A program made the translations under genes and the position numbers. DNA of 64,000 bases from Erythrobacter sp. (GTDB lineage: Bacteria; Pseudomonadota; Alphaproteobacteria; Sphingomonadales; Sphingomonadaceae), in the NCBI GenBank assembly GCA_009993635.1, contig JAACTC010000005.1, positions 620,001 to 684,000 of the forward strand. Reading direction: 5' to 3'. Below, in pieces: positions 3,254-25,204 of this stretch; positions within the stretch are counted from its first letter, which is position 1; each line of letters opens with the position of its first letter. The notes beneath the pieces were generated by a model, which did no database searches, was not told where the DNA came from, and was given only the letters and a program-made list of their open reading frames with translations.

Positions 3254-3918
3254 TGGCAAAGAAGCCGGGGCAGGTACGCGATCACGCGGCGCTGATGGAT
3301 TCGATCTATCGCGGCCAGAAGTACATCTACGACGCCACGCGCAAATATTACCTGTTCGGGCGCGACGATCTGATCCGCGGGCTCGACTGCCAGCCGGGCG
3401 ACGCGGTGCTGGAGATCGCCTGCGGCACGGGGCGCAACCTTGCCAAGGTGCAGCACGCCTACCCGGGCACCCGGCTGTTCGGCATCGATATTTCGGCCGA
3501 AATGCTCAAGACCGCGGCGGGCAAGCTCGGCACCAGCGCGATCCTTGCGCCTGCCGATGCGCGCCAGTTCGATGCGCGCGCGATGCTGGGGCGGCCGACA
3601 TTCGAACGCGTGATCCTGTCCTACTCGATCTCGATGATCCCCGACTGGGATCGCGCGCTGTGCCATGCGGCGAAGCTGGTGGCGCCGGGCGGATCGCTGC
3701 ATGTCGTGGACTTCGGCAGCTACAGCGCGCGGCCGGGCCTTGGTCCGAAAATCCTCAGATGGTGGCTCGAACAATTCCATGTGTCCCCCCGGCTCGACCT
3801 GCCCATGGTCGCCGAAGACCTCGGCTCGGGGCCGGGCTGGCGGCGAGAAGGGCGCGACGGAATGGGCGGCTATTACCGGCTCGAACGGCTCTATCGCGAG
3901 CAGCCGCAGCCCGATTGA
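3253..3918 (+). CDS. btaB: BtaB-like SAM-dependent N-methyltransferase
   Basis: The 221-residue class I methyltransferase shows motif I VLEIACGTGRNL and an acidic motif II after LFGIDISAEML. The N-terminal HAALMDSIYRGQKYIYDATRKYY segment is typical of BtaB. BtaB methylates the amino group of diacylglyceryl-homoserine three times to make DGTS. Its start codon overlaps the btaA stop, implying translational coupling and a joint pathway. The sequence supports the methyltransferase call directly; the lipid substrate is inferred from similarity and from adjacency to btaA. Confidence 0.88.
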   Translation: MAKKPGQVRDHAALMDSIYRGQKYIYDATRKYYLFGRDDLIRGLDCQPGDAVLEIACGTGRNLAKVQHAYPGTRLFGIDISAEMLKTAAGKLGTSAILAPADARQFDARAMLGRPTFERVILSYSISMIPDWDRALCHAAKLVAPGGSLHVVDFGSYSARPGLGPKILRWWLEQFHVSPRLDLPMVAEDLGSGPGWRREGRDGMGGYYRLERLYREQPQPD

Positions 3919-3977
3919 CGATGCCGAAAGGCGAATGTAGGTTTTGATAGAAAACTGGTTTTGGGGGAGAGAAAACG

Positions 3978-4415
3978 ATGCAGGCTCAAATGTTGGCGCC
4001 CGCTGCGGTATTGGTCGCCTGGTCGCTGGTGATGCTGGTCTGGATGGCGCTCACGCGCTTTCCGGCGATGAAGAAGGCGCAGGTCGGCTTCGGTAAGTCG
4101 AAGCCTGGCGGCCGGGGTCAGGATCTGGACGGCGTGGTACCCGACAAGGTGCAGTGGAAATCTCACAATTACGCGCACCTGATGGAACAGCCGACGCTGT
4201 TCTACGCCGTGGTGGTGATCCTCGCGCTGGTCGCGCCCAGCCCGCTGGCGATCCTGCTGGCGTGGATTTACGTGGCGATCCGCATCGTCCATTCGATCTG
4301 GCAGGCGACGGTGAACATCGTGATGGTTCGCTTCCTCCTGTTTATCGCATCCACAATCGCCCTGGTCGCCCTTTCGATCATGGCCTTAATCGCAACACTC
4401 GGAGCGCCCGCATGA
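3978..4415 (+). CDS. MAPEG-family membrane protein (first of a tandem pair)
   Basis: The 145-residue protein has about four hydrophobic segments: roughly 8-26, a central one near 77-96, then 100-118 and 122-141. The loop VQWKSHNYAHLMEQPTLFYA has the arrangement seen in MAPEG (membrane-associated eicosanoid/glutathione) proteins of bacteria. A GGGGGAGA-like ribosome site lies just before ATG 3978. The 3' end overlaps the next gene by four bases (ATGA), and that gene is a clear paralogue. The enzymatic role of bacterial MAPEG proteins is usually unknown, and no substrate can be named. Confidence 0.8.
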   Translation: MQAQMLAPAAVLVAWSLVMLVWMALTRFPAMKKAQVGFGKSKPGGRGQDLDGVVPDKVQWKSHNYAHLMEQPTLFYAVVVILALVAPSPLAILLAWIYVAIRIVHSIWQATVNIVMVRFLLFIASTIALVALSIMALIATLGAPA

Positions 4416-4849
4416 TCGGCATGGACATCCTGCAACCCGTCGTCGCCCTGATGATCTGGACGATGATCGTCTGGGTCTGGATGTACGCGACCCGCATCCC
4501 CGCGATGCAGAAGAACCCGGATATCGACACCAAAAACCTGCGCGGCGGGGCCGGTTTCGATCTCGACCGGCTGCTGCCCGACCGGGTCCAGTGGAAGGCG
4601 CACAACTACAACCATCTGCACGAACAGCCGACCGTGTTCTACGCGGTCGCGATCGTGCTCGCGATCATCGGCGCGGGCGATGGCATTCCGGCGCTGCTGG
4701 CGTGGATCTACACCGGCCTGCGGGTCATCCACACGCTGGTGCAGGTAACCGCGAACAAGGTGATGGTGCGGTTCGTGCTGTTCGCGATTTCCAGCTTCGT
4801 GCTGATGGCGCTGATCGGTTTCGCAGCGGCGCGGGTGTTCGGCAGCTAG
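4412..4849 (+). CDS. MAPEG-family membrane protein (second of a tandem pair)
   Basis: The 145-residue paralogue of the preceding gene shares the layout: N-terminal membrane segment, RIPAMQK loop, then VQWKAHNYNHLHEQPTVFYA, then three hydrophobic helices. The start is ATG 4412, overlapping the upstream stop. A longer open frame extends upstream but only as a shadow of the first MAPEG gene. The two genes appear to come from tandem duplication and may form hetero-oligomers (MAPEG proteins are trimers). It ends four bases before the convergent trxB stop. Function unknown. Confidence 0.8.
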   Translation: MIGMDILQPVVALMIWTMIVWVWMYATRIPAMQKNPDIDTKNLRGGAGFDLDRLLPDRVQWKAHNYNHLHEQPTVFYAVAIVLAIIGAGDGIPALLAWIYTGLRVIHTLVQVTANKVMVRFVLFAISSFVLMALIGFAAARVFGS

Positions 4850-4853
4850 GCCG

Positions 4854-5837
4854 TCACTCCGCCGCTTCGACTTCCTCAACGTGGCCGTCCAGCTCGATTT
4901 CGAGGCCTGACAGGAACCGCTCCGCATCCAGCGCGGCCATGCAGCCGGTGCCGGCCGCGGTCACCGCCTGGCGGTAGGTGTGGTCCATCACATCGCCGCA
5001 GGCGAACACGCCGGGGATCTCGGTGCGCGGAGTGCCGGGCTCGACCATCAGGTAGCCGCCGTCGTCGGTCGGCAGCTGGCCGGTGAACAGCTCGGTCGCA
5101 GGGGCATGGCCGATGGCGACGAACGCGCCGTCGACTTCGAGCGTGCTCTCCTCGCCGGTCTGCGTGTCCTTCAGCACGAGGTGATGCAGCGCGCCGTTCT
5201 CACCCGGCTCGAACCGTTCGACCGCCTTGTTCCACAGCGGGGTAATCTTGTCGGATTTGAACAGGCGATCCTGCAGGATCTTCTCGGCGCGCAGCTCGTC
5301 GCGGCGATGGATCAGCGTAACGTCGTCCGAATGGTTGGTGAGGTACAGGGCTTCCTCGACCGCGGTGTTGCCGCCGCCAATCACCGCGACCTTCTTGCCG
5401 CGATAGAAGAACCCGTCGCAGGTCGCGCAGGCGGACACGCCCTTGCCGCCCAGTTCCTGCTCGCCCGGCACGCCGAGCCATTTGGCGGAGGCGCCGGTGG
5501 CGATCACCACCGTGTCGCCGATGTACTCGTCGCCGCTATCGCCCACCGCGCGAAACGGGGAGCCGTTCCTGAGATCGATCTCCACGATCGTATCCCAGTG
5601 CATCTTCGTGCCGACATGCTCTGCCTGCGCGCGCATCTGGTCCATCAGCCACGGCCCCTGGACGACGTCCGCGAAGCCGGGGTAGTTCTCGACATCGGTG
5701 GTGATGGTCAGCTGCCCGCCCGGTTGCAGTCCCTGAACCATGATCGGTTCCAGCATGGCGCGCGCGCCATAGATCGCGGCGCTGTAGCCCGCGGGTCCGG
5801 ATCCGATGATGAGCATCTTGGTGCGGTGCGTCGCCAT
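4854..5837 (-). CDS. trxB: Thioredoxin-disulfide reductase
   Basis: The 327-residue flavoprotein uses NADPH to reduce thioredoxin in the cytoplasm. The FAD-binding GSGPAGYSAAIYGARA motif is at the N-terminus. The redox-active CATC motif sits in SACATCDGFFYRGK, the NADPH-binding GGGNTAVEEALYL follows, and the second FAD motif GVFACGDVMDHTYRQA is near the C-terminus. The length matches low-molecular-weight bacterial TrxR. The acidic tail (EIELDGHVEEVEAAE) extends slightly beyond the core. It is transcribed toward the MAPEG pair. Confidence 0.97.
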   Translation of the reverse strand: MATHRTKMLIIGSGPAGYSAAIYGARAMLEPIMVQGLQPGGQLTITTDVENYPGFADVVQGPWLMDQMRAQAEHVGTKMHWDTIVEIDLRNGSPFRAVGDSGDEYIGDTVVIATGASAKWLGVPGEQELGGKGVSACATCDGFFYRGKKVAVIGGGNTAVEEALYLTNHSDDVTLIHRRDELRAEKILQDRLFKSDKITPLWNKAVERFEPGENGALHHLVLKDTQTGEESTLEVDGAFVAIGHAPATELFTGQLPTDDGGYLMVEPGTPRTEIPGVFACGDVMDHTYRQAVTAAGTGCMAALDAERFLSGLEIELDGHVEEVEAAE

Positions 5838-5900
5838 GTGCGAAGCTCTCCTGTCAGTCTGAAGTCTTGGGATCGAATATGGGGATCGAGGCGCGCAGAG

Positions 5901-6683
5901 TCACGCCACGAAGCGTGCCTGCAGAGCATCCCGCAAGGTGTCATCCACACCAATCGCCTGGTCGAGGAATGCGTCCAGCGATCCCCAGTTGTCGTCCACC
6001 ACCGCGAAGAAGCGGTCGAAATAGGCTTCGCGCACCTCCATCAACTCGGCCACGACATCGCGCGGCAGCGGGCCAAGCCGCGCCTCTATCCCCGGGAGCG
6101 ACTGCCTTTCGAGGATTTCGTAAGTCGGTGCATCATTGGTGCGCAGGAACTCGGCCAGCATGTCGGCGCGCGATACGCCGAGGATGTGGTGCAGCAGTGC
6201 CGCCGCTATCCCCGTGCGATCCTTGCCTGCAAAGCAGTGGACCAGGCTGGCACCGTCGCGTTCGGCCAGCGCGCGAAGATATTGACCGAAAATCGTCTGC
6301 ATCGCCGCGTTGCGCGGCATCCGGCTGTAGACGCCCAGCATCCGCTCTTGCGCCGCTTCCTTGGTCAGCGCCAGCTTCTCCTGCGGCTCGTGCGGCGGGC
6401 GCGAGCTGGTTTCGCCATCGTAGAACACGACCTCGCCGTCCCACAGGTCGGGGCGGCGGCACGGATGCCGCTCCCGCTCGGCATTGCCGCGCAGGTCGAT
6501 CACGGTGCGGATGCCCAGTTCGGCAAAGGTCCGCAGATCGTCTTCGCTCGCTTCGCAATGCTGGCCCGAACGATAGAGCAGCCCGGTAACGACGCGGCCC
6601 CCGCCCTGCGTCGGATAGCCGCCGTAATCGCGGAAATTGTGAATGCCTTCGGTGGCGAGGAAGGTCGCTGCTGGTTCGGTCAT
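5901..6683 (-). CDS. Tyrosine-protein phosphatase (Y_phosphatase3 / dual-specificity-like)
   Basis: The protein has about 260 residues. The catalytic P-loop HCFAGKDRTGIAAALL fits the CX5R signature of cysteine phosphatases and is of the HCxxGKDRTG type found in bacterial Y_phosphatase3 proteins. The N-terminal GIHNFRDYGGYPTQGGG and RSGQHCEAS segments are also characteristic. These enzymes dephosphorylate phosphotyrosine and sometimes phosphoinositides; the physiological substrate here is unknown. ATG 6683 was chosen; an in-frame GTG two codons earlier (6689) is an alternative. It lies downstream of, and in the same direction as, the CitE-like gene with a 63-base gap. Confidence 0.88.
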   Translation of the reverse strand: MTEPAATFLATEGIHNFRDYGGYPTQGGGRVVTGLLYRSGQHCEASEDDLRTFAELGIRTVIDLRGNAERERHPCRRPDLWDGEVVFYDGETSSRPPHEPQEKLALTKEAAQERMLGVYSRMPRNAAMQTIFGQYLRALAERDGASLVHCFAGKDRTGIAAALLHHILGVSRADMLAEFLRTNDAPTYEILERQSLPGIEARLGPLPRDVVAELMEVREAYFDRFFAVVDDNWGSLDAFLDQAIGVDDTLRDALQARFVA

Positions 6684-20170: not shown

Positions 20171-20294
20171 TTGTCACTCTCGGGTAACCGCGAGCAGCGA
20201 GCGGGTAAAGCGCGATAAGGCCGGAAGTTCCTGCGAGATTTTACAGTCAGAGCGTCAATGCATCCATGGCGACGGGCCGATGCACCCGGCCCCG

Positions 20295-20323
20295 CGGTCC
20301 GCGCTGATTGGGTGCGCGGACCG
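20295..20323. other. Perfect inverted repeat (possible terminator of the globin transcript)
   Basis: A 10-base arm CGGTCCGCGC and its exact complement GCGCGGACCG are separated by nine bases. It sits between the 3' end of the globin gene (transcribed leftward) and the upstream region of the glutamate-synthase-like gene. There is no T-run on either side. It may end or stabilise the globin transcript, or be an operator for the downstream operon. Confidence 0.5.
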
Positions 20324-20385
20324 AGTGCGCTGTTCCCCACCCGGCGGCCCGAGTGCGGGCAGGCTACGATCTGCCCGTCAACGGA

Positions 20386-20913
20386 CTACCGTTCGACGAT
20401 TTCGTCACTCATCGGAGCCAGCTTGGCGAGGAAGCGGTTTTGCGCGGCAAAGCCGACTCCTTCCTCGCGCATCGCGGTCTGCAGGTTCTCGACGATTGCG
20501 TTCATTTCCGGCTTTCGAGAGCCGAGCCCCTGGTGCGCGCTGCGCATGTCGCGCCCGGTATAGTCGCAGCCCGCGTTGAGGATATAGCAGAACTGTTCGA
20601 AGATCGTCCGGCGGAAGCGGACATGGTCGTGCCCTTCGAAGATGGCGGCAATGCGGGGATCGGAGATCGAAAGGTCGGCAAACCGATCGGCGATCCGCCG
20701 GATGCCCTCGCGTCCGCCAAACTGCTCTGCCATGCCGGTGCCGCTGAATGGCTTCGCTCCGGCATTGTCGTTGCTCTGATCATAGGGATCGACCGGCAAT
20801 TCTCCGGTTACCGGGTCGCGCTCTTCCACCTCGACGCCGAATTCCTTGTCCCAATCGACGTCCGCTTCGGGAGCCTGTTGCATCAGCAAGAGGGCAATCG
20901 CTACAGTCAGCAT
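20386..20913 (-). CDS. Group I truncated hemoglobin-like protein, probably exported
   Basis: The 175-residue protein opens with a short hydrophobic stretch (MLTVAIALLLMQQA) consistent with a signal peptide. An acidic linker follows, then a truncated globin domain (about 62-170): FGGREGIRRIADRFADLSISDP, EQFCYILNAGCDYTGRDM, and RSAHQGLG with the proximal heme His at about 127. By position the helix B10 residue, usually Tyr in this family, appears to be Ala79. It is encoded 11 bases after the DUF3034 gene, so the two are probably co-transcribed, and is divergent from a cupredoxin and GGDEF-EAL pair. It likely binds heme and a gas or redox ligand in the periplasm; the ligand is unknown. Export depends on a weak signal peptide and is moderate in confidence. 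Confidence 0.8.
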   Translation of the reverse strand: MLTVAIALLLMQQAPEADVDWDKEFGVEVEERDPVTGELPVDPYDQSNDNAGAKPFSGTGMAEQFGGREGIRRIADRFADLSISDPRIAAIFEGHDHVRFRRTIFEQFCYILNAGCDYTGRDMRSAHQGLGSRKPEMNAIVENLQTAMREEGVGFAAQNRFLAKLAPMSDEIVER

Positions 20914-20924
20914 GGTTCGAACTC

Positions 20925-21938
20925 CTAGAATGCGAATTGTGCTTGAAGAAACAGGCCGCGCTGATCCTCGAACGTCGCGATTGAGCCGAGATCGGCGTAG
21001 GCGGTGGTCAGCGTGACAGCGTCGGTGACGGCATAGGCGGCGAATATGTCGAACCAGTTGTCCTCGCCCAGCCCCAGATTGTCGGGCTTGGTCCGGAACT
21101 CGGCGCCCGCGACGAAACGGCGGGAGAGCTGGTAGGCGAGCGATACTTCGAACTGGAGCGAATAGTCGGAGTCGGTTGCCGAGCCAAAGCCTAGCAGGCC
21201 GTTCTGATTACCCTTGGTCAAACGCGCGGTCGTGTTCACCAGCACGCTGTGCGAGAGGAACAGCTTGGTCGCACTCAGCGTGAAGTCGAGACCTTGGTCC
21301 TGTGCCGCGCCCACCGCAGCCGCGATTGGCCCGTCGAGCGCGCGCTTGTACTGCACGCCGGCCGAGATCTGGGGCATCAGCGGGTCGCCATAGACCACAT
21401 CGCCAGCGAGCCTGACCTTCGCCCCGAAGACGTCCTGATTGAGCACGTAGCCCTTGCCGATGCCAAGCGCGGTTCCGACGTCCTGTGTGTCGAAATTCTG
21501 CCGGGCATAGGACAGCTCGACCCGGTCCGCGATACCCAACGCCACGCCAAAACTGGTCCACTGGTAATCGGGCAGTGCGATGAACGTCGCGTGGGTTTGC
21601 ACCCCCAGCCCTCTGTCCGACTGCCGTCCCCCGATCGTTGCCCAGCTGGCGATACCGCCGCCGCTGCCGCCCTCGATGGGGGAGGCCGCGTTGGTCAGAA
21701 GAAGCTTGGCATTGTAGTTCGCAGGCGGCGGCGGATCGCCGTCTGTGTCCGTCCCCACGGAGGGTCCGACCATCGAGGAGTCCGCCCGTAGGCTTCGGAC
21801 CGGCCTAAGCTCGTCAGCGGGTTCCCCGATGCAATCATCACAGCCCCCTCCGCCCAGACTTTCGGCCTGGAGCGCGGAGGGCATCAATGCGCAAGTGATT
21901 AGCAGCGTTGCGTTTCGCATGAGACGAGCGTTTTTCAT
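20925..21938 (-). CDS. DUF3034 family outer-membrane-like protein
   Basis: The 337-residue protein from ATG 21938 has a signal peptide cleaved near ALMPSALQA. A Cys motif (CDDC) and a low-complexity linker follow, then the DUF3034 domain: AKLLLTNAASPIEGGSGGG, YQWTSFGVALGIADRVELSY, QDVFGAKVRLAGDVVYGD, RRFVAGAEFRTKPDNLG. Alternating hydrophobic strands and a terminal phenylalanine (QAQFAF) point to an outer-membrane beta-barrel. The family function is unknown. It shares an 87-base divergent promoter region with the cupredoxin/GGDEF-EAL operon and is followed by the globin gene. An extended upstream open frame is a shadow of the divergent gene. Confidence 0.85.
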   Translation of the reverse strand: MKNARLMRNATLLITCALMPSALQAESLGGGGCDDCIGEPADELRPVRSLRADSSMVGPSVGTDTDGDPPPPANYNAKLLLTNAASPIEGGSGGGIASWATIGGRQSDRGLGVQTHATFIALPDYQWTSFGVALGIADRVELSYARQNFDTQDVGTALGIGKGYVLNQDVFGAKVRLAGDVVYGDPLMPQISAGVQYKRALDGPIAAAVGAAQDQGLDFTLSATKLFLSHSVLVNTTARLTKGNQNGLLGFGSATDSDYSLQFEVSLAYQLSRRFVAGAEFRTKPDNLGLGEDNWFDIFAAYAVTDAVTLTTAYADLGSIATFEDQRGLFLQAQFAF

Positions 21939-22025
21939 AGGAAGCGCTTGGCAGGCGGTGGTTATCAACCCGTAAATCACGCGGTGGCCTTTTCTTAAGA
22001 GTTGGCCGTCTAGCGCCCCTACGTA

Positions 22026-22637
22026 ATGAAACGTATTCTCTGCTTTATCGCCATCTTCGCCGCGGTGCCCGCATCCTGGGCCTGGGCGACAGCCTCCGAA
22101 GATATCAGGATCCAGATCGTCGATCAGCGCGGAATGCCGGTGCGCGATGCCGTGGTCGAACTGGCAGGCGATCGCACCCATTCCGGCCCGATCCGTTTCC
22201 CCTGGCGCATGGCGGTGGCACAGCGCAACGAGACGTTCGTCCCCGGCACGCTGATCGTCCCGAAGGGAAGCACGGTCGCATTTCCCAATCTCGACCGGGT
22301 GCGCCACTCGATCTACAGCTTTTCCAAGCCCGCTCGGTTCGAGATAGAGCTTTACGGGCGCGACCAGACGCGCAGCCAGAATTTTCCCGCGAGCGGGACG
22401 GTATCGATCGGCTGCAAGATCCACGACAACATGCGTGGCTATCTGCGGGTCGTAGAGACCCCTTTTGCAGGTAAGACCGACGCGAACGGTTACGTCACGC
22501 TGAGCGGCGTCCCGACCGGCAACGTGTCCGCAACCGTCTGGCATCCCTCGCTCCGTGGGCCGAACAACGAACGCAACGGCTTTCTGTCGATCAAGCCCAG
22601 CCAGAACGTCCAGCGGGTTACGGTCACACTGCGATGA
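22026..22637 (+). CDS. Periplasmic cupredoxin-like protein (annotated elsewhere as methylamine utilization protein)
   Basis: The 203-residue protein has a signal peptide (MKRILCFIAIFAAVPASWAWATA). A beta-sandwich with a cupredoxin pattern follows: VPKGSTVAFPNLDRVRHSIYSFS supplies His94, and GCKIHDNMRGYL supplies Cys130, His133 and Met136, a plausible type 1 copper ligand set. A C-terminal carboxypeptidase-regulatory-like tail (KTDANGYVTLSGVPTGN) ends the protein. Similar proteins are often called methylamine utilization proteins, but no methylamine dehydrogenase genes are present here. It overlaps the GGDEF-EAL gene by four bases, suggesting it works with that receptor. Copper binding is inferred. 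Confidence 0.82.
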   Translation: MKRILCFIAIFAAVPASWAWATASEDIRIQIVDQRGMPVRDAVVELAGDRTHSGPIRFPWRMAVAQRNETFVPGTLIVPKGSTVAFPNLDRVRHSIYSFSKPARFEIELYGRDQTRSQNFPASGTVSIGCKIHDNMRGYLRVVETPFAGKTDANGYVTLSGVPTGNVSATVWHPSLRGPNNERNGFLSIKPSQNVQRVTVTLR

Positions 22638-24946
22638 GGGCTAAAAACGCCCTGAAACGCCTGCCTGGCCTGCGCTTCGCCTCGCTGCGGGATCGGATCT
22701 CGCTGCTGTATGCCGGACTGTTCGCGGCAGTGCTGGTCACCATGATGTTTCTGGTCAACGCGGGGATCGAGAGGTTCGGCGAAGCCAACGCAACGCTTGA
22801 ACTTTCTGCAAATGCCCGGGTGTTCGACGAACTGGTCGATCTGCGCGCGCGGCAGATGCAGGGGGCAGCCAATGTCCTCTCGCGCGATTTCGGATTTCGC
22901 GAGGCAGTTGCCACGGGTGATGCGCCCACCGTATCCAGCGCCCTGCGATCGTTGCGGAAGCGTTCGGGCACGTCGGCTGCATTCGTCGTCGGGTTCGATG
23001 GATCGCTGGTCACGGATGGATCGCGAGGAATACCGTCTGCAGATGCCTTGTGGTCCGCATTGGACGAAGGACGCGAAAAAGGCGTCGTGCAGATCAACGG
23101 CCGCCCTGCGCTGGCCGCCGCGTCGCCGATCGAAGTCCCGGATCTGGTCGGCTGGCTGGTGCTTGCCCAACCGCTCGACCAGGCGGAGATGAGTCGGCTT
23201 TCCGATCTCGCGCCGGTCGACATCGATGGCTACGTCCAATCGCAGGACAGGTTGCCGGCACGGCTCGCCTCCGCTCCGCACGGGCAAGTGGTCAAGAGCG
23301 GCGATGCCGCGCAGAACCTCTATCATCTCTCCACCCTGCCCGCCCTGCAGGAGGGGCTGGAGCCGCGCCTGGTGCTGCGCCACTCGCTGGGTGCGGCCCT
23401 GCTGCAGTACAATGCTCTGAAACTGCTGCTGGTGATGGTATCGCTCGCAGGCCTCGCGCTGGCGATCATTCTCGGCAGGCGGGTCGCGCGCGGGATCACC
23501 GGCCCGCTTTCGCGACTGGACGAGGCCGTTCGCCGCTTCGCACAGGGCGAAGGCAGGGTCGCGGTGCCTGAAACCGATGACGAGGTCGGCCGACTGGGCG
23601 CCAGCTTCAACCGCATGGTCGGCGCGATCGAAGAACGCGAACAGAAGATCATCCATGTCGGCCTGCACGACGGGCTGACCAATCTCCCCAACCGCAAGCT
23701 GTTCGTCGAACAGCTCGACCAGGCGCTGTCCAGGCGGCAGGATGGGGAGAGGGTGCTGGTCGCCTACTGCGACCTCGACGATTTCAAGGTGATCAACGAC
23801 GCCTTCGGCCATCCGGCGGGCGACGCCCTGCTGTGCGCGGTGGCCGATAATCTGCGCAACGAATTGCGCGATGCGCAGATCGCGCGCCTGGGGGGCGATG
23901 AATTCGCAATCCTGCTGGTGGAACACGACGAATCGGCCAGCCTGCTGCCCGTTGCCAAGCGCATTCGCGACGCCCTCGTGCGCCCGGTCGACGTGCAGGG
24001 CAGCGCCATCGAAGGGTCGGCCAGCATCGGAATCGCAGTGGCACCGGCAGATGGGGTCACCGGGGTGGATCTCGTCAAGCATGCCGACCTGGCGCTCTAC
24101 CGCGCCAAGAAGGGCGGCAAGTCTGACTTTCATTTCTTCGAGCCCTCGCTTGATGAGGAGGCGCGCCAGCGGCGCGAAATGGAAGCGGACCTGCGACTGG
24201 CGATCAACCACGGGCAGTTCGAACTTTTCTTCCAGCCGCTCTGCTCGCTCACAGATGGGGGGATCAGAGGGTTCGAGGCGCTGCTGCGCTGGAACCACCC
24301 GGAAAAGGGCAGGATAAGCCCGGGCGTATTCATTCCTCTCGCGGAAGAGACGGGCCTCATCATGCAGTTGGGAGACTGGATCGTGCGCGAAGCCTGTCGC
24401 GCGGCAGCCACCTGGCCCGAAGACTATTCGGTCGCGGTTAACATCTCGCCCAAGCAGTTCGGTGCGCCGGGTCTCGCGGCCACCATCACGCAGGCCTTCA
24501 CGCAGGCCGGGCTGTCGCCGCGCCGGCTCGAGCTGGAAATCACCGAAAGCATCTTCATCGCCGACGTGGACCGGACGCTTTCCACCCTGCATTCGCTCCG
24601 CGAGCTGGGCGTGCGCATCTCCCTCGACGATTTCGGCACCGGCTACAGCTCGCTCAGCTATCTCCGCAGCTTCCCGTTCGACAAGGTAAAGATCGACCAG
24701 AGCTTCGTGCGCGATCTCGACAGCGCGGGGAACAATGGCCACGCGCTGATCCGCGCGATCACCACGCTTGCCGATGCGCTGGGCATGGAGACGCTCGCAG
24801 AGGGGGTCGAAAGCCCGGCCCAGCTTGAAATCCTGCGCGCCGAAGGCTGCGGAAACGTCCAGGGCTTCCTGCTCGGAAAACCCATGCCGCTGGCGAATGT
24901 CGAAGAGTTTCTCTCTCGCGGCAGCCGCGACAGCAAGGTCGCGTGA
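22634..24946 (+). CDS. Transmembrane GGDEF-EAL protein (c-di-GMP cyclase/phosphodiesterase) with periplasmic sensor
   Basis: The 770-residue protein has a first membrane helix (about 22-43), a periplasmic region of about 215 residues and a second helix (about 262-281). A HAMP domain (about 282-335), a GGDEF domain (motif GGDEF at 420-424, preceded by HDGLTNLPNRK) and an EAL domain (FEALLRWNHP at about 547, later DDFGTGYSSLSYL and KIDQSFVRDL) follow. Both active-site motifs are intact, so it may make and break c-di-GMP. The periplasmic part looks like a Cache-type or unrecognised sensor. Co-transcription with the cupredoxin gene suggests the signal comes from the periplasm. Confidence 0.93.
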   Translation: MRAKNALKRLPGLRFASLRDRISLLYAGLFAAVLVTMMFLVNAGIERFGEANATLELSANARVFDELVDLRARQMQGAANVLSRDFGFREAVATGDAPTVSSALRSLRKRSGTSAAFVVGFDGSLVTDGSRGIPSADALWSALDEGREKGVVQINGRPALAAASPIEVPDLVGWLVLAQPLDQAEMSRLSDLAPVDIDGYVQSQDRLPARLASAPHGQVVKSGDAAQNLYHLSTLPALQEGLEPRLVLRHSLGAALLQYNALKLLLVMVSLAGLALAIILGRRVARGITGPLSRLDEAVRRFAQGEGRVAVPETDDEVGRLGASFNRMVGAIEEREQKIIHVGLHDGLTNLPNRKLFVEQLDQALSRRQDGERVLVAYCDLDDFKVINDAFGHPAGDALLCAVADNLRNELRDAQIARLGGDEFAILLVEHDESASLLPVAKRIRDALVRPVDVQGSAIEGSASIGIAVAPADGVTGVDLVKHADLALYRAKKGGKSDFHFFEPSLDEEARQRREMEADLRLAINHGQFELFFQPLCSLTDGGIRGFEALLRWNHPEKGRISPGVFIPLAEETGLIMQLGDWIVREACRAAATWPEDYSVAVNISPKQFGAPGLAATITQAFTQAGLSPRRLELEITESIFIADVDRTLSTLHSLRELGVRISLDDFGTGYSSLSYLRSFPFDKVKIDQSFVRDLDSAGNNGHALIRAITTLADALGMETLAEGVESPAQLEILRAEGCGNVQGFLLGKPMPLANVEEFLSRGSRDSKVA

Positions 24947-25013
24947 ACGGCTGCGACACCGCGAAAGGCGGTCGGAAACCGCTCTGGGAAACCGGACATC
25001 GCGCTGGAAGAAT

Positions 25014-25090
25014 TGGTAGCGGAGGAGGGACTCGAACCCCCGACACGCGGATTATGATTCCGCTGCTCTAACCACCTGAGCTACTCCGCC
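25014..25090 (-). tRNA. tRNA-Met (anticodon CAU, elongator)
   Basis: A 77-base cloverleaf reads on the minus strand. The acceptor stem GGCGGAG pairs with CTCCGCT (first pair G-U), the anticodon stem GCGGA/TCCGC encloses ATCATAA, and the T arm contains GGTTCGAGTCC. CCA is encoded. The paired G1 acceptor end excludes initiator tRNA. The body matches the elongator Met pattern of alphaproteobacteria better than Ile2(CAU), though lysidine-modified Ile2 cannot be excluded by anticodon alone. Confidence 0.93.
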
Positions 25091-25204
25091 CCAAGCTTGC
25101 CATACCAGGTACGGCACGAGGCCTGCCGGAGCGGTTAGCTCGCCGGCAGGCGGCGCTCTTAGGGTGCGGGCGCGCGGCGGTCAAGGCAGGTTCCACACGC
25201 TTTG

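Follow-up and report, generated by a model that had tools for sequence, protein, structure and literature searches.

A putative periplasmic copper protein encoded beside a membrane c-di-GMP receptor, a DUF3034 barrel and a truncated globin in Erythrobacter

The locus and its genes

This paper concerns a locus of four genes in Erythrobacter sp. (assembly GCA_009993635.1, contig JAACTC010000005.1, positions 620,001 to 684,000 of the forward strand). By the window we mean that whole stretch of 64,000 nucleotides, and coordinates are positions within it. Two genes run leftward, for a barrel protein of the family DUF3034 and a truncated globin, and two run rightward, for a cupredoxin and a membrane receptor with GGDEF and EAL domains. 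On balance we favour, as somewhat probable, the view that the products form an envelope-spanning module in which a type 1 copper protein of the periplasm controls a membrane phosphodiesterase for cyclic di-GMP (c-di-GMP), with the barrel and the globin as partners. The features are as follows (aa, amino acids; TM, transmembrane helix).

20386-20913, minus strand: globin gene, 175 aa; group 1-type truncated globin with an exported-type N-terminus
20914-20924: gap of 11 bases between the globin and DUF3034 genes
20925-21938, minus strand: DUF3034 gene, 337 aa; predicted outer-membrane beta-barrel
21939-22025, no strand: divergent intergenic spacer of 87 bases, shared promoter region
22026-22637, plus strand: cupredoxin gene, 203 aa; predicted periplasmic
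22305-22307, plus strand: predicted copper ligand His94, from the residue census
22413-22433, plus strand: predicted copper ligand loop Cys130-x2-His133-x2-Met136, from the residue census
22634-24946, plus strand: receptor gene, 770 aa, inner membrane; TM-sensor-TM-HAMP-GGDEF-EAL
22760-23419, plus strand: periplasmic sensor domain, CHASE4/dCache-like (CHASE4 31 bits)
23666-24121, plus strand: GGDEF domain (Pfam), motif intact in the window copy
24185-24883, plus strand: EAL phosphodiesterase domain (Pfam), catalytic positions present

An earlier reading of this DNA from its letters alone (the sequence-only reading) had described four genes with 11 bases between the leftward pair, a divergent spacer of 87 bases and an overlap of the cupredoxin and receptor genes. 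All lie where it put them, the overlap being 4 bases. We placed the DUF3034 start at 21938; the mechanical open reading frame (ORF) extends to 22544.

Conservation of the neighbourhood

Two sets of loci were used. A scan of a genome collection with the cupredoxin alignment gave the best 80 of 278 relatives, a set biased to near relatives. The phylum sample comprised 398 Pseudomonadota genomes, the window's own genome counted, and cupredoxin matches in it were kept at E<=1e-20. This left 61 and drops two split matches in genome G551 beside its DUF3034 gene, giving 32 instead of 33 of the 39 DUF3034 genes with a cupredoxin nearby. The 62 phylum loci are the 61 matches, window included, and the G551 locus; neighbours were clustered without the window (61 loci). 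Some neighbours are missing due to contig ends.

In 71 of the 80 loci an EAL-type receptor adjoins the cupredoxin on the same strand, and in 7 more a kinase, part of a receptor or a receptor truncated at a contig end takes that place; two loci, L044 and L064 (contig end), have no receptor beside the cupredoxin. At a distance of up to 6.5 kb from the cupredoxin, 59 of the 80 loci have DUF3034 and 55 the globin. The commonest order is that of the window, with globin and DUF3034 leftward and cupredoxin and receptor rightward. In the phylum sample there is an alternative in which cupredoxin, receptor, DUF3034 and globin follow each other on one strand (as in L166, L170, L178 and L181), and L067, L081 and L087 have further arrangements. 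Gene content is thus kept despite the changes of order, which argues for a functional link.

Across the 398 genomes DUF3034 is found in 39, the cupredoxin profile matches in 80 at E<=0.001 and in 56 at E<=1e-20, and the receptor sensor region is present in 51 at E<=1e-10. Sensor and cupredoxin occur together in 49 genomes (Fisher P 1.5e-52), DUF3034 and cupredoxin in 38 (P 4e-38) and DUF3034 and sensor in 37 (P 4e-38), all three P values being inflated by relatedness. Linkage is close: of 58 sensor genes 46 have a cupredoxin gene within 1 kb and 48 within 2.5 kb, and 32 of 39 DUF3034 genes have one within 4 kb. In five genomes with an unlinked receptor (G436, G338, G667, G466 and G450) the cupredoxin is found elsewhere. 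The globin adjoins DUF3034 on the same strand in every case (39/39, or 40/40 counting a second, broken copy in G392), and does so in 8 of 10 further genomes of a class sample. Among the best globin matches 40 of 42 are beside DUF3034 (E<=3e-33; the next best match is at 8.5e-26), and in both sets of loci (80 and 62) the globin was seen only with DUF3034. De novo clustering found no other gene family within 6 kb that recurs in more than 7 of the 80 or 3 of the 61 loci, the families being unannotated.

Given the co-occurrence and linkage counts, chance adjacency of the four genes can be rejected. The sequence-only reading had staked its claim on a conserved neighbourhood, and the neighbourhood is strongly conserved and in several gene orders; its finding is real and broader than it stated.

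The cupredoxin and its receptor

By Pfam the cupredoxin falls below the cut-off (Cupredoxin_1, 12.2 bits against a gathering cut-off of 27). Its AlphaFold2 model, from an alignment of 52 sequences, has a mean pLDDT (predicted local distance difference test) of 92.9 and shows the fold over residues 41-144, with Z 10.5-12.4 to known cupredoxins, among them 9cck and 6hbe (both Z 12.4) and amicyanin 1mda (Z 11.6). Transthyretin-like or similar structures match over residues 23-203 with only 76-81 residues aligned, for example 9hfj, the SusC NTE domain (Z 11.2 over 23-203, 76 aligned), and 2nsm, carboxypeptidase N (Z 10.6 over 25-203, 78 aligned). From the aligned ranges, the cupredoxin core (about 59-143) is apparently inserted in a predicted transthyretin-like or CarboxypepD_reg-type domain (about 23-48 and 145-203).

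The sequence-only reading had offered His94, Cys130, His133 and Met136 as candidate ligands, and both its family assignment and these residues hold up well. In the residue census, in which identical sequences were counted once, all four are kept in 147 of 147 distinct cupredoxins with the four columns filled (150 rows in all). The protein thus shares with amicyanin and other small cupredoxins the fold, the four ligands and the C-x2-H-x2-M loop, the spacing of which we take to be of the amicyanin type. It differs from amicyanin in its extra transthyretin-like part and its linkage to signalling genes, and amicyanin identity is rejected at 15.3 bits against a cut-off of 110.2 for the equivalog TIGR02657.

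The receptor proved to be, as had been proposed, a membrane GGDEF-EAL protein with a periplasmic sensor. It has CHASE4 (31 bits, cut-off 26.2), HAMP (37, cut-off 25), GGDEF (139, cut-off 23.8) and EAL (244, cut-off 31.3) domains together with the EAL catalytic residues, and with the TM helices placed by eye the sensor covers about residues 43-262. The window sensor has no Cys and 3 His. In the sensor region only D85 and R110 are the same in all 38 sequences compared. No Cys or His is invariant, so the sensor itself is unlikely, by its residues, to hold a metal.

The EAL region is filled in 124 of 129 distinct receptors, five being gapped. In these 124 the EAL glutamate, N603, D665, D666 and K686 are invariant and E635 is replaced once, by Asp; E723 is kept in 122 of 122 filled rows. 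We take these positions to be the catalytic ones. The exact GGDEF motif is present in 47 of the 129, and the window copy has both GGDEF and EAL motifs. By eye we saw no RxxD I-site in the window GGDEF domain at what we assume to be its usual place. Since the EAL catalytic positions are near-invariant and the GGDEF motif is often degenerate, the conserved output of the receptor is predicted to be c-di-GMP breakdown.

Receptors with other outputs

In a few loci the cupredoxin is paired with a receptor of another type. A dCache_3-HAMP-adenylate/guanylate cyclase is directly beside it in L193 and L215, a HAMP-Ser/Thr kinase in L195 (dCache_3 over its cut-off, CHASE4 just below) and a dCache_3-HAMP-HisKA-HATPase-receiver-Hpt hybrid kinase in L048. 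L235 and L236 have PAS histidine kinases, with one CCP_MauG gene between them and the cupredoxin; the CCP_MauG family of L235 recurs in 3 of the 61 phylum loci. A sensor-only profile (residues 1-283, HAMP and output excluded) gave 136 matches in 171 loci. Of the 13 that lie outside the EAL-receptor set, seven are duplicates or fragments of EAL receptors and the other six are these non-EAL receptors: L193 (E 1e-56), L215 (4e-57), L048 (8e-56), L195 (4e-16), L235 (3e-16) and L236, which matches over residues 2-35 only (3e-4). The pair of sensor and cupredoxin is thus kept while the output domain differs. Of all the evidence, this and the two cases that follow speak most strongly for cupredoxin and receptor working as a single sensory unit, but non-EAL loci are few in number.

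Two related cases may be mentioned. A short cupredoxin (118-128 aa) is near DUF3034 and globin in L200, L201 and L202; in L200 and L201 a histidine kinase comes next, without a match to the sensor profile. In L197 a single ORF (3829-5955, minus strand) has HAMP, HisKA and HATPase domains joined through a hydrophobic segment to a cupredoxin domain at its C-terminus (Copper-bind, 23 bits, cut-off 21.2), and is divergent from DUF3034 and globin. This fusion is in a single genome and a sequencing error that removed a stop codon is possible.

DUF3034 and the alternative barrels

The outer-membrane-like barrel of the sequence-only reading is supported by a predicted model. The protein matches PF11231 with 296 bits (cut-off 25) over the whole profile (1-255), and its AlphaFold2 model (mean pLDDT 73.5, residues 1-95 of low confidence) has 12 strands at residues 111-336, an even number as in outer-membrane barrels. 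The model matches 162 chains with Z >= 8, best FapF (Z 20.1), followed by KdgM (18.5), the COG4313 channel (18.2) and NanC (18.1). DUF3034 is thus predicted to share the barrel fold of FapF and the COG4313 channel, but its identity to them is just 10-13%.

In a limited literature search, which covered neither subscription papers nor preprints, we found no function for DUF3034. In the parts of the papers available the name is in a figure legend of a retron paper and a table row on a Streptomyces membrane protein. The figure 5 legend of PMC12548924, in the part available, has a single "DUF3034" and elsewhere uses DUF3037, so the name is probably an error there.

In many loci without DUF3034 the cupredoxin adjoins a barrel of another family (403-447 aa, here the ~410-aa family; 12 proteins homologous by BLAST), which is porin-like through weak, sub-cut-off Pfam matches (Porin_4, BBP2). 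The two profiles never label the same ORF. Of the 80 nearest loci 77 have a barrel no more than 6.5 kb from the cupredoxin: DUF3034 in 59, one of which (L061) has both families, and the ~410-aa family alone in 18; L055, L080 and L083 have neither. The corresponding number for the phylum is 49 of 62 (33 with DUF3034, 13 with the ~410-aa family and 3 with a third barrel-like gene, beside cyclases). Another outer-membrane barrel family thus often stands in where DUF3034 and the globin are missing. The cupredoxin tree follows barrel type, with 16 changes against 44.9 in shuffles for 138 sequences, a result helped by near-copies. L061 (9947-16480) has two adjacent cupredoxin modules, one with a ~410-aa barrel and the other with DUF3034 and globin.

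The globin

The globin matches Bac_globin (PF01152) with 34 bits (cut-off 21), and its best profile matches in the PDB are group 1 HbN chains (E 3e-24). Proximal His127 (F8) and CD1 Phe92 are kept in 102 of 102 distinct globins, so that family match, proximal His and CD1 Phe all agree with a group 1 truncated haemoglobin; the helix positions are those we assume for the family, transferred by alignment. A polar distal pocket with Tyr B10 is typical of group 1, and this trait is absent. The window pocket is apolar (Ala79, Phe100, Ile104). Among the 102, position 79 (B10) is V in 53, L in 25, I in 14, N in 3, M in 3, T in 2, A in 1 and E in 1, thus apolar in 96 and never Tyr, and positions 100 and 104 are apolar in all. 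The top HbN chains in the PDB vary among themselves at the pocket positions.

Cys109 and Cys116 are both present in 96 of the 102 globins and both absent in 6, with no case of a single Cys. Joint gain or loss is the pattern expected of a structural disulfide in an oxidising compartment, and suggests a predicted Cys109-Cys116 disulfide. The locus globin therefore agrees with HbN in profile match, proximal His and CD1 Phe, and differs in its exported-type N-terminus, lack of Tyr B10, Cys pair and linkage to DUF3034.

Whether the globin carries a signal peptide, as the sequence-only reading had it, is partly supported. A 9-residue hydrophobic stretch precedes the core in 88 of 88 globins. The rule is a loose one, satisfied as well by 140 of 371 other ORFs in the neighbourhood. 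The family result favours export, but the window's own N-terminus, MLTVAIALLLMQQAPEA, is atypical because it is short and the usual positive residues are missing. By eye, lipoprotein-like N-termini (LSAC, LAAC, LAGC) are present on the globins of L168 (7532-7963), L259 and L260, the last two being globins that lie away from DUF3034.

The divergent spacer and the flanking tRNA gene

No sigma-70-like site was found in 20200-25200. In 57 divergent spacers no known regulator box exceeded the numbers in shuffles, and control by one of these was rejected: FNR-like 3 (2.7 in shuffles), CueR-like 4 (3.5), a second CueR form 1 (5.4), Fur-like 0 (0) and CsoR-like 0 (0.4). The CtrA-like TTAA-N7-TTAA is in 1 of 57. 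As for TTAA, 55 of the 57 contain it, compared with 22.5 in mononucleotide shuffles, a control that ignores AT-rich promoters and the coding ends included. GTTAAC, GGTTAA or TTAACC is present in 30 of 57 DUF3034-cupredoxin stretches against 5.8 in simple shuffles, also a weak control. The best dyads are G+C-rich, perhaps from coding bias.

A tRNA-Met gene (25014-25090, minus strand) lies 67 bases past the receptor stop codon. Its proximity, taken with the patchy distribution described below, could mark an insertion site there.

Proposed function and alternatives

We suggest the following mechanism. The periplasmic copper protein would dock on the periplasmic sensor of the adjacent inner-membrane receptor. 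Its copper or redox state, which would depend on the supply of copper, on redox poise or on a product of the globin reaction, would alter the receptor through HAMP and so change EAL activity. In this sub-type the output would be hydrolysis of c-di-GMP by the EAL domain, and lower c-di-GMP would favour motility over attachment. The DUF3034 barrel would act as the partner in the outer membrane, where it probably forms a channel through which the relevant ligand or metal passes. The exported globin would be an accessory that brings haem to the DUF3034 branch, and its probable reaction with O2, NO or peroxide in the periplasm would influence the state of the copper protein. Contact, copper binding, the direction of regulation, the nature of the signal and the roles of barrel and globin are what we infer here. 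The sequence-only reading had proposed a periplasmic redox- or gas-sensing module in which haem and copper proteins set c-di-GMP. The part in which a copper protein sets c-di-GMP fits the invariant ligands and near-invariant EAL residues; the sensing of redox state or gas, and haem and copper acting jointly, may apply. The globin is absent from loci with the ~410-aa barrel and so is not needed for the cupredoxin-receptor pair.

More generally, the blue-copper family may be sensory co-receptors and not electron carriers, forming a class of copper- or redox-gated envelope signalling with CHASE4/dCache receptors. This would have at least four outputs (c-di-GMP phosphodiesterase, cyclic-nucleotide cyclase, histidine kinase and Ser/Thr kinase) and one of several barrels. 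We regard this wider proposal as evenly balanced.

A number of observations weigh against the module as we see it. Members of these loci went into the sensor and globin profiles, so that matches there are favoured and the gaps sharpened, and swaps of output were seen in a small number of loci (two cyclases, a Ser/Thr kinase and two kinases by the sensor profile). Ten of the 58 sensor genes have no cupredoxin gene within 2.5 kb. Three of these, in G513, G681 and G530, encode extra GGDEF proteins without an EAL match in genomes that also hold a linked pair, and in G316 and G449 the sensor is present but the cupredoxin absent. Likewise 7 of 39 DUF3034 genes have no strong cupredoxin match within 4 kb, the cupredoxin being absent in G392, elsewhere in G518, G436, G681, G530 and G565, and adjacent as a weak split match in G551. 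Two DUF3034 loci of the class sample, L099 and L103, have no globin. Distribution is patchy, with the cupredoxin in 0 of 9 genomes of the same genus and 5 of 39 relatives overall. Among the 62 phylum cupredoxin loci 13 have no recognised barrel and 15 no adjacent same-strand receptor. Five of these 15 (L188, L191, L216, L217 and L225) consist of cupredoxin and a ~410-aa barrel, and these two may serve a separate function such as metal transport.

Those five loci also speak for a role in copper supply, in which the barrel would admit or export copper, the cupredoxin would be a periplasmic store or chaperone, and the receptor would report apo or holo occupancy and not redox state. The regular presence of a barrel near the cupredoxin (77/80 and 49/62 loci), the invariant type 1 ligands, and the match of the DUF3034 model to PcoB, a copper transporter according to the PDB (Z 13.1), point the same way. 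However, PcoB ranks under FapF, KdgM, NanC and the COG4313 channel, no copper-resistance gene emerged as a regular companion in the clustering of unannotated families, CueR- and CsoR-like boxes are at shuffle level in the spacers, and the globin is left unexplained. We consider copper supply unlikely, if the most serious of the alternatives. A periplasmic redox pair, in which the cupredoxin would donate electrons to the globin, for example in NO or peroxide detoxification, with the receptor a co-regulated passenger, would account for a globin tied to DUF3034 and mostly near the cupredoxin, and for the cupredoxins beside di-haem CCP_MauG proteins in L235 and L236. It sits badly with the sensor staying with the cupredoxin in loci with other outputs, and with 15 of the 80 loci that have cupredoxin, EAL receptor and ~410-aa barrel but no globin. 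These last disfavour electron donation to the globin as the core role, and we think the pair distinctly improbable.

FtrB of the FtrABCD iron transporter has been discussed in a context of oxidase-like iron uptake (PMC11966278, in the part available). By analogy the cupredoxin could work like an oxidase in the uptake of iron through the barrel. The structure of Brucella FtrB (8vuk) resembles the cupredoxin model at Z 11.4, but many cupredoxins match equally, with Z differences under 1. In L191 and L217 a large gene (a TonB-dependent receptor by Pfam in L191) and a 226-aa gene precede the cupredoxin-barrel pair, similar gene pairs with a 225/226-aa gene were seen by eye in 3 of the 80 loci (the L042 family), and a large gene with a like N-terminus is beside the L250 sensor receptor, in a genome without a cupredoxin match. 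Such pairs are nonetheless in a small minority of loci, a Fur-like box is in 0 of 57 spacers, and an iron function seems to us the least probable of those considered.

Relation to known systems

Our limited search of the literature found no description of such a module and, by title, no paper on a cupredoxin-diguanylate cyclase pair. The text of a 2022 census of c-di-GMP stimuli does not contain "copper", "cupredoxin" or "azurin", which is weak evidence, as it does not contain "YfiR" or "NspS" either.

Three known systems invite comparison with the module that we propose. YfiR is not known to be a cupredoxin and YfiB is OmpA-like. In YfiBNR of Pseudomonas aeruginosa an outer-membrane component, a periplasmic regulator and an inner-membrane c-di-GMP enzyme work together, the periplasmic protein gating the enzyme (PMC4887326, as far as available). 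The three-compartment architecture and periplasmic gating are what we propose for the locus; however, YfiN is a diguanylate cyclase, whereas the locus has an EAL output, a copper-type regulator and a globin. Pfam at E<=1 found no YfiR-type or OmpA-like YfiB family in the four proteins, and membership was rejected.

NspS is PotD-like. NspS-MbaA of Vibrio cholerae has, like the locus, a periplasmic protein paired with a bifunctional c-di-GMP membrane receptor, but NspS binds polyamines, and a barrel or globin is not mentioned in the parts available (PMC5646818, PMC8967002). No polyamine-binding PotD-like family was found by Pfam in the four proteins at E<=1, and membership was again rejected. 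HmsC-HmsD of Yersinia pestis also links a periplasmic protein, one with disulfide-forming cysteines, to a membrane c-di-GMP enzyme (PMC8846402, in part). HmsD is a diguanylate cyclase, and by that account HmsC uses cysteine pairs and not a copper site.

Second-messenger receptors gated by a periplasmic protein are thus known, and what would be new here are the protein families and a copper protein as the regulator; there is a fair chance that blue-copper co-receptors are a general class. If our proposal is correct, DUF3034 and the exported globin branch gain a functional setting, a blue-copper protein joins the periplasmic regulators of second-messenger enzymes, and periplasmic monitoring through copper proteins, with outer-membrane wiring to c-di-GMP, becomes testable in environmental strains.

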